DNA of 64,000 bases, taken from Timonella senegalensis JC301. Lineage in GTDB: Bacteria; Actinomycetota; Actinomycetes; Actinomycetales; Cellulomonadaceae. The stretch lies in assembly GCF_000312125.1 (NCBI RefSeq), contig NZ_HE978641.1, positions 209,533 through 273,532 of the forward strand, given 5' to 3'. Every line of letters begins with the position of its first letter. Position 1 is the first letter of the stretch. The position numbers and the translations under genes are program-made. A model generated the notes under the pieces. It had not been told where the DNA came from and ran no database searches. It saw nothing but the letters and a program-made list of their open reading frames with translations. Shown here piece after piece: positions 12,933 to 15,597 of the stretch.

Positions 12933-13661
12933 ATGAGCACCATTTCCCTGTGGCACGTCTTCTTTTCCGAGTTTCTCGGCACGGCAGTCCTCCTGACCAT
13001 TGGAACGTCCCTGTGCGCAAACAACACCCTGCGCACGACCAAGGGATTCAATGCCGGCTGGATAGGCATCACTTTTGGCTGGGGGTTTGCGGTATTCACT
13101 GCGGCGTACATCGCCTTCAAGTCCGGCGCACATCTCAATCCAGCTGTGACCCTCGGCTTTGCTCTACACGGCTCCGAGTTCGCACCTAGCATCGCCGTGA
13201 CATGGTCAAATGCGGCGATGTACATGTCCGGCCAACTCCTCGGCGCGTTTGTGGGCAGTTGCATCGCCTACCTCGTCTACCTCCCGCACTTTGACTCCGT
13301 CACGCGTGAAACATCGCTCGGCATCTTTGCCACGACTCCCGCGATCCGCCGCCCCGCCTCCAACCTGTTCACCGAGATCGCCGCGACCACCGTCCTCGTT
13401 CTGTGGCTTCTCGTCTCCAACTACACCGAGTCGAGCCTCGGTCCGCTCGCTGTTGCCGTGGTCATTGTTGCGATCGGAATGGGCCTCGGTGGCCCAACTG
13501 GCTACGCCATCAACCCCGCTCGCGACCTCGGCCCACGTATCGCGCACGCCGTCCTGCCGCTGCGCCATAAGGGCTCAAGCGACTGGGGTTACGCTTGGAT
13601 CCCCGTGGTCGGCCCATTGATCGGCGGCGTCGTGGGAGCATTCCTCGCTGGAGCGCTCTAA
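12933..13661 (+). CDS. Second MIP-family aquaglyceroporin
   Basis: A 242-residue channel closely related to glpF in this window; it has the same N-terminal helix pattern, the half-helix SGAHLNPAVTLG, and an identical block YAINPARDLGPRIAHAVLP. The second motif again carries the Asp typical of glycerol-type channels. It stands alone behind an upstream gap of about 250 bp with no clear ribosome site, so it is regulated apart from the glp genes. It probably arose by duplication of glpF; whether it carries glycerol or another polyol is not visible. Confidence 0.9.
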   Translation: MSTISLWHVFFSEFLGTAVLLTIGTSLCANNTLRTTKGFNAGWIGITFGWGFAVFTAAYIAFKSGAHLNPAVTLGFALHGSEFAPSIAVTWSNAAMYMSGQLLGAFVGSCIAYLVYLPHFDSVTRETSLGIFATTPAIRRPASNLFTEIAATTVLVLWLLVSNYTESSLGPLAVAVVIVAIGMGLGGPTGYAINPARDLGPRIAHAVLPLRHKGSSDWGYAWIPVVGPLIGGVVGAFLAGAL

Positions 13662-13844
13662 GTCCCTGAAAAGCCCTCAACGCCTGGGACTCCAGCAACG
13701 CCCCAGGCACCCAGCCCTTCGCTGCCTCGCCCGTTCCGGGCTCAAAAAATCCACTGCTTCTCGACGATCGTGCCCACCTTCCTGCCTCAACTCACCAACT
13801 CGTCCCATCCGTCTCGCACAACCCCCTGCACCCTCCAACACGGT

Positions 13845-13860
13845 TCGAACGTATGTTTGA
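13845..13860. promoter_or_regulatory. LexA (SOS) box upstream of the DNA polymerase gene
   Basis: TCGAACGTATGTTTGA matches the actinobacterial SOS box TCGAAC-N4-GTTCGA at all but one specified base (T for C in the right half). It ends 30 bp before the GTG start at 13891, so LexA would block transcription. Confidence 0.75.
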
Positions 13861-13890
13861 AAACCTGAGTACTAAAGGCACAATAGAAAT

Positions 13891-15597
13891 GTGCAGTTCG
13901 TAGTCGATCCAGTGAACGAGGATGAGTTTGAGGTGACCACCATCAAGGTGGGTCACAGCTCGGGCGACGTCCAAGCACTCGACGCTGCGCGACTCTCCCC
14001 CGAGGAACTAGTTGAGTTTGTCCGCGAGCGCGAGTCCGGGTTCTCCGAAGAACCTCACCCCCGCTGGGTGTGGGCGGATACGTCGATCACGTATGCTTTC
14101 CTGCTCTCCCACGGCGTCCGCGTTGAGCGCTGCCACGACCTGCGAAAGTCGCGCGCGATCCTGCGCGGTGCGGCGTGGACCGATTCTAGGGCGTTCAGCG
14201 AGGCTCCTAACATGCTGGAGTCCAATGCTTGGAACTTCCCTCCCGCTGCCCGCTCCGACGCGCTGTTCACAACCAAGCCGCGCGCAGTGCCCGAGCCCCT
14301 GACCGAACTCCGCCGCCAGCTCACTGTCTTAAGAACCGCGGAGCCCGCCCTGCGCGGCCGCCTCAACTTCCTGCTTGCTGCAGAGTCCGCGGGGACACTC
14401 ATCGCAGCCGAGATGTCCCACGCCGGCATTCCCTGGATCCGGGAGATCCACGACTCCATCCTGGCCGAGGCGCTGGGACCGCGCCCTCTTCCGGGAACCC
14501 GGCCCAATCGTCTTGAATCACTTGCGCAGCAGATCAGAGATCTGCTGGACGCGCCGGGACTGAACCCGGACTCCCCACGCGAGTTGCTGAAGGCATTGAA
14601 CCAGGCCGGGTTTGCGGTGAAATCCACGAACAAGTGGGAGATTAAGAACGTGGACCATCCTGCGGTGCCGGCCCTCCTGGAGTACAAGAAACTCTCGCGA
14701 ATGATGACCGCAAACGGCTGGACGTGGATGGACGAGTGGATCAAAGATGGTCGGTTCCGGCCAATCTACGTGCCCGGCGGCGCGGCCACCGGTAGGTGGG
14801 GCGCCGACGGCGGCGGGGCTTTGCAGCTCCCGCACTTTGTGCGACCGGCGGTTGTGGCGGACGAGGGGTGGTCGTTCGTGATCGCGGACGCCGCACAAGT
14901 TGAGCCACGTATCCTCGCGGCGATGTCCGGCGATCGCGCCATGGCGAGTGCAGGGCGCGGGCTGGACATGTATCAGGCCATCGCGGACGCAGGCATTACA
15001 GAGGATCGGTCGCACGCCAAGTACGGCATGCTCGGCGCAATGTACGGCGGGACCACTGGCGTGTCCGCACAGGTGCTGCCCAAGTTTAAGGTGGCGTTCC
15101 CGCGTGCAATGGGCATGCTAGAGCGGGCTGCGCGTGCGGGGGAACAGGGCGCAGTTGTCCATACGTGGCTTGGCCGCACCTCCGCGCCCGGATCGTTTGA
15201 TGGAGGAGGCGAGGGCGAGGACGCCGCGAGCGCCAAGGACCGTCGTGCGCGAGCCCGTGGCTATGGCCGCTTCACCAGGAACTTCATTGTCCAAGGGTCC
15301 GCCGCTGAGTGGGCCCTGTGCTGGATGGCCTCGGTCCGCCAGCAGCTGTGGCGGCTCTCGTTGAAGGAGTCTGCTGGCGCAGACGGTGCCGCGCCGCTGG
15401 TCACGGCAGGTCCTCACCTAGTATTTTTTCTTCACGACGAGATACTGGTTCACACCCCATCGCACCTTGCTCCTGCGGTCGCGAAAATCGTAGAGGACGC
15501 GGCGCGCGAGGCCGGCCGCCTATTGTTTGGGGAGAGCGATGTAGAGTTCCCCATCACCGCGGCGGTAAATTCCACGTACACGGATCCGAAATCGTGA
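13891..15597 (+). CDS. Family-A DNA polymerase, actinobacterial 'bifunctional 3'-5' exonuclease/DNA polymerase' type
   Basis: A 568-residue protein, much shorter than Pol I: no 5' nuclease and a reduced N-terminal exonuclease-like part (about 1-190) without obvious DEDD acidic residues. The polymerase core is intact: motif A DAAQVEPR with Asp333, motif B R373-X3-K377 to Tyr385 (RSHAKYGMLGAMYG, with Leu381 where E. coli Pol I has Phe762), and motif C HDE at 515-517. The LexA box upstream points to a DNA-damage role. The protein exists separately from the essential Pol I (not in window). GTG 13891 has no clear ribosome site. Confidence 0.88.
   Translation: MQFVVDPVNEDEFEVTTIKVGHSSGDVQALDAARLSPEELVEFVRERESGFSEEPHPRWVWADTSITYAFLLSHGVRVERCHDLRKSRAILRGAAWTDSRAFSEAPNMLESNAWNFPPAARSDALFTTKPRAVPEPLTELRRQLTVLRTAEPALRGRLNFLLAAESAGTLIAAEMSHAGIPWIREIHDSILAEALGPRPLPGTRPNRLESLAQQIRDLLDAPGLNPDSPRELLKALNQAGFAVKSTNKWEIKNVDHPAVPALLEYKKLSRMMTANGWTWMDEWIKDGRFRPIYVPGGAATGRWGADGGGALQLPHFVRPAVVADEGWSFVIADAAQVEPRILAAMSGDRAMASAGRGLDMYQAIADAGITEDRSHAKYGMLGAMYGGTTGVSAQVLPKFKVAFPRAMGMLERAARAGEQGAVVHTWLGRTSAPGSFDGGGEGEDAASAKDRRARARGYGRFTRNFIVQGSAAEWALCWMASVRQQLWRLSLKESAGADGAAPLVTAGPHLVFFLHDEILVHTPSHLAPAVAKIVEDAAREAGRLLFGESDVEFPITAAVNSTYTDPKS

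Follow-up and report, generated by a model that had tools for sequence, protein, structure and literature searches.

The gene at positions 13891–15597 (+ strand) of the window, i.e., the whole 64-kb stretch of DNA that was analyzed, encodes a putative DNA polymerase and is preceded by a LexA (SOS) box-like sequence. The locus was originally predicted to carry an SOS box directly before a reduced family-A polymerase, which would be damage-induced and possibly of low fidelity. This raises the question of what kind of polymerase is encoded, and whether its control by LexA is a property of the polymerase family or of the window species.

The polymerase and its proofreading domain

The predicted protein (568 amino acids, GTG start) matched the NCBIfam family NF011538 (PRK14975.1-1) with 693.4 bits against a curated cut-off of 389, residues 25–567 aligning to positions 20–557 of the 557-position profile, and the family-A polymerase family PF00476 with 75.6 bits against a gathering cut-off of 34.3. 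An ordinary polA was located at another site of the genome (PF00476, 506.7 bits). By these profile matches, the window protein is a second, divergent family-A polymerase and a full-length member of NF011538, with which it shares the motif pattern. The key family-A residues Asp333, Lys377, Tyr385, and His515-Asp516-Glu517 were found to be present. In the family alignment, motif A (ADAAQVEPR; 14884–14910, + strand) contained the catalytic Asp333 and the steric-gate Glu338, motif B or the O-helix extended from Arg373 to Tyr385 (15007–15045, + strand), and motif C corresponded to His515-Asp516-Glu517 (15433–15441, + strand). The Klenow residues Asp705, Glu710, Arg754, Lys758, Tyr766, Gln849, and His881-Asp882-Glu883 were retained, and the changes relative to Klenow were Tyr706 to Ala in motif A and Phe762 to Leu381 in the O-helix. 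The claim that motifs A, B, and C are kept and that Leu381 replaces the O-helix Phe was borne out by this alignment. Leu381, presumably in the column of Taq Phe667, was also common to the family, being invariant in 91 of 91 NF011538 members (110 loci, 20 of them left out) and in 45 of 45 sequences of a second alignment, composed of the window protein and a hand-picked 44 of the 80 named loci.

The AlphaFold model of the protein (mean pLDDT 91.4) aligned over its full length, residues 1–568 with Taq 303–832 and residues 1–567 with Klenow 350–928. The fold matches included Taq (3lwl; Z 27.6, 3.8 Å over 467 residues) and Klenow (1kfd; Z 25.1), in a comparison (Foldseek/VIA) whose list does not exclude the families outside it. 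From the full-length alignment, the N-terminal ∼130 residues (13891–14280, + strand) would occupy the place of the 3′–5′ exonuclease domain, and secondary structure together with structural alignment suggested a remnant of that fold. No exonuclease family of Pfam matched the 568-residue protein at an E value of 0.001. In the family alignment, which is weak and unreliable in the N-terminal part, the columns of Klenow D355, E357, and D501 were empty, and that of D424 corresponded to Asn115 in the window protein and to Asp in 43 of 45 sequences; the hhalign coverage did not include the N-terminal part. Within the limits of that alignment, these observations agree with the predicted lack of recognizable proofreading acids. 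It is probable that the 3′–5′ exonuclease domain is dead, and proofreading lost, across the whole NF011538 family; the exonuclease part of its name, “bifunctional 3′-5′ exonuclease/DNA polymerase,” was unsupported by the residues of the window protein. The window polymerase also has no 5′–3′ exonuclease domain.

Leu381 was considered as the mark of a special mutator and rejected, as the residue is invariant in the family; together with the probable family-wide loss of proofreading, it represents a family trait and not a sign of a special mutator. The family-A, Klenow-like fold of the model is shared with the human polymerases theta (Z 26.4) and nu (Z 25.2), neither of which is known to proofread. 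Since the Taq Klenow fragment fitted equally well or better (Z 27.6), the modeled fold gives no specific indication of a translesion type. “Low-fidelity” is a guess, if a fair one, for the window polymerase. The protein may instead be an accurate exonuclease-minus gap-filler in excision or recombination repair, with damage control only raising the repair capacity, a possibility that we rate just short of even. The retention of the steric-gate Glu338, Arg373, Lys377, Tyr385, and motif C is consistent with such an enzyme, as is the placement of the ordinary polA of a Streptomyces-like genome (G372) under the same type of promoter as the NF011538 gene (see below). The Pol I of Helicobacter pylori, which has the same family-A, Klenow-like fold and is devoid of proofreading, is described as accurate on undamaged DNA, with mutagenic bypass reported in the same source (PMC3121766). 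However, the O-helix Leu and the Ala at the Tyr706 position, both (nearly) invariant, could loosen base selection, and the loss of proofreading takes away the editing step.

PafBC-type promoters of the orthologs

Of 200 genomes from the window species' family, 182 scored above the NF011538 cut-off, as did 105 of 296 sampled from the class; none of the 14 control genomes, Corynebacterium glutamicum among them, did so. As far as the open-licence literature was searched, NF011538 is a catalogued and widespread family without characterization, and no paper naming it as PafBC- or LexA-controlled was found there.

The P1/RecA-NDp promoter, which is independent of LexA/RecA, is given the consensus tTGTCRgtg–8 nt–TAnnnT (PMC5656591). 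PafBC is described as activating P1 on a single-stranded DNA (ssDNA) signal by binding the −26 motif in place of a −35 element (PMC11804915), and RecA-NDp is said in a review to extend to other Actinobacteria (PMC8223512). A k-mer and motif scan upstream of the 80 named loci revealed an element at −28/−29 from the start that matched this published P1. Removal of duplicates reduced 227 upstream regions to 212 (L244 and L246, among 60 fetched regions, had been dropped before the P1 counts for want of a tblastn hit). P1 (TTGTCRGTG-N8-TANNNT) was detected by either criterion in 130 of the 212, usually 5–7 nt before the start codon: 129 regions carried P1 alone, one carried P1 and a LexA box, five a LexA box alone, and 77 neither. 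By group, P1 was present in 45 of 65 regions of the window species' own family, 23 of 24 of a Streptomyces-like genus, 38 of 80 named loci, 4 of 12 in group f5, and 0 of 3 in group f33.

With up to three mismatches allowed, 76 of 198 orthologs carried the published P1, whereas 99 permuted versions averaged 6.0 matches, the highest count being 30. When the spacer was varied, the published motif occurred in 83 of 212 regions at spacer 8 and in 12–44 at the others, which is less sharp than for a refined motif. The latter (TGTCRG...SASAMT) was derived from the same orthologs, the published motif alone being independent; with up to one mismatch it occurred in 123 of 212 regions at spacer 8, in 0–7 at each of the others between 3 and 14, and in 8 of 3,666 windows taken from other parts of these loci. 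Its permutations gave a mean of 5.2, one reaching 107 against the 116 observed, presumably as a near-copy of the refined motif.

Most orthologs thus carry a PafBC-type promoter as judged by its pattern, and SOS control is the exception within NF011538. LexA boxes with up to one mismatch were seen in 5 of 80 named loci, 5 of 140 loci, and 7 of 199 rows including the window; in one of these seven (L212) the box lies within the end of the upstream gene and may be a chance match. This rarity led us to reject SOS control as a trait conserved in the family. The orthologs share with the mycobacterial PafBC/RecA-NDp regulon the −26 element, the 8-nt spacer, and the −10 element, a combination lost in the window gene: TTGTCRGTG-N8-TANNNT was absent from its promoter, the best match having four mismatches and lying within the coding sequence.

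The Streptomyces-like genus (f25/g54) is probably Streptomyces, with 5–10 SsgA-type genes per genome in the five genomes tested. Its orthologs carry P1 without a LexA box, unlike the window gene. In G372 (L305–L323), 141 places matched the P1 pattern with up to one mismatch against 18 for the reversed control. Nineteen sites were exact, and the genes at ten of them were scanned with Pfam: five were repair or polymerase genes, three had no known repair role, and two gave no hit; several of the other nine sites had a doubtful ORF call. Exact P1 was present 7 nt before recA, polA, the DinB-type, the alkyltransferase-like, and the NF011538 genes. The three genes without a known repair role encode DUF6891, RidA-like, and amine oxidase proteins. 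These patterns speak for an extensive P1 regulon in Streptomyces-like genomes. We take SCO3434 to be the NF011538 ortholog of Streptomyces coelicolor. The transcript of SCO3434 (“DNA polymerase I”) is listed as raised along with dnaE2, dinP, recA, lexA, and uvrA on topA mis-expression (PMC6637917, Tables 5 and 6). In an initial search reported by Stratton et al. (2022) (PMC9380542), the PafBC motif of M. smegmatis appeared not to be conserved in S. venezuelae; the G372 sites bear on the question that was left open there, that of a RecA/LexA-independent response in Streptomyces.

The window species has the pathway as well. Its genome contains tandem genes, one of the WYL/WCX type followed by one with a PafC HTH domain. 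Among the 21 P1 sites (up to one mismatch) examined, those before radA, dnaX, uvrB, and a gyrB/parE-type gene lie 6–8 nt from the start, those before recA and imuA′ lie further off (51 and 57 nt, respectively), and the remainder precede other or doubtful ORFs. The site ATGTCAGTG-N8-TAGGTT (1715–1737) lies 6 nt before the ATG of the radA-like gene (from 1744), whose product has a zinc ribbon, a RecA-type ATPase, and a Lon-C domain. A P1 promoter was also observed 6 nt before the start of a DUF5998 gene (L188; G000:C2:360431), a candidate new damage-response gene. This P1 set is functional-looking, and since pafBC-type genes are present along with it, the pathway appears to have been retained and the polymerase gene to have left it.

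It is unlikely that the element of the orthologs, TTGTCRGTG-N8-NANNNT, is bound by a different activator or represents a general promoter type for leaderless transcripts. PafBC binding data from outside mycobacteria were not found in the literature searched, and the initial search in S. venezuelae mentioned above also favors such a reading. Against it, sequence and spacing agree with the published P1 consensus (PMC5656591), the gap of 11 nt from TTGTCR to the −10 element is too short for a sigma-70 −35 element, and the copies in the window species' own genome precede recA, radA, uvrB, and dnaX, with pafC present.

The LexA box and a probable change of regulator

The LexA box of the window gene, TCGAACGTATGTTTGA (13845–13860, + strand), has one mismatch to the palindromic consensus TCGAACNNNNGTTCGA and is an exact match to TCGAACNNNNGTTYGA. 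It was the only site with up to one mismatch to TCGAACNNNNGTTCGA in the 64-kb window, where ten sites with up to two mismatches were found against 3.14 expected from shuffles, and its end lies 30 nt before the GTG start codon (13891), as originally described. A sigma-70-like promoter scan of 301 bases (13660–13960) gave a single promoter, TTGAAA-N16-CACAAT (13857–13884), pointing into the ORF at 13891, against 0.0 expected in shuffles. The box overlaps the −35-like hexamer TTGAAA (13857–13862, + strand) and is so placed that LexA could block the promoter. The −10-like hexamer CACAAT (13879–13884, + strand), which was compared with L271, L005, L273, and L024, is followed after 6 nt by the start codon, and both its sequence and its position are identical in the nearest relative, L271. 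With the box over the −35 element and the start 6 nt after the −10 element, this promoter is most simply read as giving a leaderless transcript repressed by LexA.

In the whole genome (6 contigs, 3.0 Mb), sites with up to one mismatch gave 83 strand-hits against 63 for the reversed control, so that the LexA pattern at one mismatch is mostly noise. The case for the box consequently rests on the exact class, on the neighbors of its other members, and on the promoter overlap. Exact TCGAACNNNNGTTYGA sites numbered four against one for the reversed pattern, and the other three precede lexA, a HEPN/dinB pair, and imuA′. The lexA upstream region carries the exact box and, 69 nt further on, a second box with one mismatch; the exact box of L138:1543-3201 (G000:C3:524342) stands before a gene pair, the first with a HEPN_SAV_6107 domain and the second of DNA polymerase IV type; and recA and uvrA are also preceded by one-mismatch sites. 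In the imuA′ locus L139:1-3001 (G000:C2:460917-460960), a P1 site is followed after 5 nt by the exact LexA box. imuA′ is apparently under both PafBC and LexA, as for recA.

The SOS box of the window gene is real and probably works, and LexA control of the polymerase gene in the window species is well supported by these sequence features. It is very improbable that the LexA-like box arose by chance and that the gene is constitutive or otherwise controlled: the one-mismatch count is barely above its control and the box is missing from most orthologs, the nearest relative L271 included, but the box belongs to the exact class together with lexA, HEPN/dinB, and imuA′, overlaps the −35 hexamer, and has counterparts at the same gene in Microterricola and Rathayibacter. 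The window gene shares its LexA box class with DinB and the ImuA′-ImuB-DnaE2 mutasome. DinB is a family Y and DnaE2 a family C polymerase, and the window protein belongs to family A instead. No accessory partner gene was seen beside it. The DinB-like and ImuA′ genes lie elsewhere in the genome with LexA boxes of their own, in agreement with the proposal that the locus is distinct from these mutasomes.

On the protein tree, which comprised 155 rows, three changes were needed to account for the six rows with LexA (the window, Microterricola, and four Rathayibacter), so that, as read from the tree, LexA control was gained separately in the window species, Microterricola, and Rathayibacter. The window row grouped with L271, L005, and L273 (100% SH-aLRT). 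P1 was present in the near relatives L005 (Jonesia quinghaiensis) and L273; the closest relative, L271, had a decayed P1 and no LexA box, with the same CACAAT-6 nt-start as the window. Hence, P1 decay may have preceded LexA gain in this lineage. A GAGAAT −10 element is common to Microterricola (L030) and its sister, Leifsonia sp. Root4 (L041); it is preceded by ATGTCGGCG (P1) in L041 and by a LexA box in L030. In Rathayibacter, 370–458 nt separate the LexA box from the inferred polymerase start downstream, and the box precedes a small conserved ORF of ∼97 amino acids (L043:2573-2866, L044, L074, and L063; Rathayibacter and a related strain), of which the L043 copy had no Pfam match. LexA control in Rathayibacter would therefore act through an operon. 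The occurrence of P1 in close relatives of the first two LexA-gaining lineages suggests that the polymerase gene exchanged PafBC activation for LexA repression more than once.

A phage or plasmid origin of the polymerase was also considered and was unsupported by matches to plasmid and phage records. Three plasmid records (Nonomuraea, Embleya) matched, that of Nonomuraea being 11.85 Mb long; of 20 phage-record matches, one covered at least 80% of the query, an unverified faecal contig. This contig (L303; MT836519.1), a “Bacteriophage sp.” from human faeces, carries an NF011538-like polymerase 70% identical to that of the bacterial locus L178, the closest among 11 proteins compared, and is probably a mislabelled bacterial contig. 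These loci (L300–L303) were examined separately, outside all counts; the Nonomuraea locus L300 had P1 with three mismatches just before the start, and neither the two Embleya loci nor L303 had P1 at the start.

Proposed mechanism and significance

We consider it likely that the gene encodes a short second family-A polymerase for the damage response, whose control passed from P1 to LexA in the window species. Ancestrally, the gene would have had an activator-dependent P1/RecA-NDp promoter, in which TTGTCRGTG at −26 is separated by 8 nt from the −10 element and the transcript is leaderless; as established in mycobacteria, such promoters are read by RNA polymerase together with ssDNA-activated PafBC. 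The window species lacks the −26 element but keeps the −10 element and start, and upstream of these it has a −35 hexamer overlapped by the LexA box, where LexA would block RNA polymerase until RecA on ssDNA triggers its self-cleavage. The most likely role of the polymerase would be to close gaps during repair and to continue synthesis beyond lesions or mismatches. Binding of LexA and PafBC, induction by damage, and the enzymology of the window polymerase are predictions from sequence in this scheme. For the family as a whole, we lean toward a damage-response polymerase of many Actinomycetes that was ancestrally PafBC-driven and came under LexA on three or more occasions, two of which left the −10 element and start in place and replaced the −26 element.

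Of greatest interest is that a PafBC-type promoter is conserved across this family and that LexA control has taken its place more than once. If true, this would constitute a natural experiment in which an activator is swapped for a repressor and the ssDNA signal is kept. NF011538 is now a clear candidate for a place in the DNA-damage response of actinobacteria, and its polymerase may add to the mutation supply beside DinB and DnaE2. With the regulator changed repeatedly, relatives that differ in the driver of the same gene would allow the purpose of each damage pathway to be asked.
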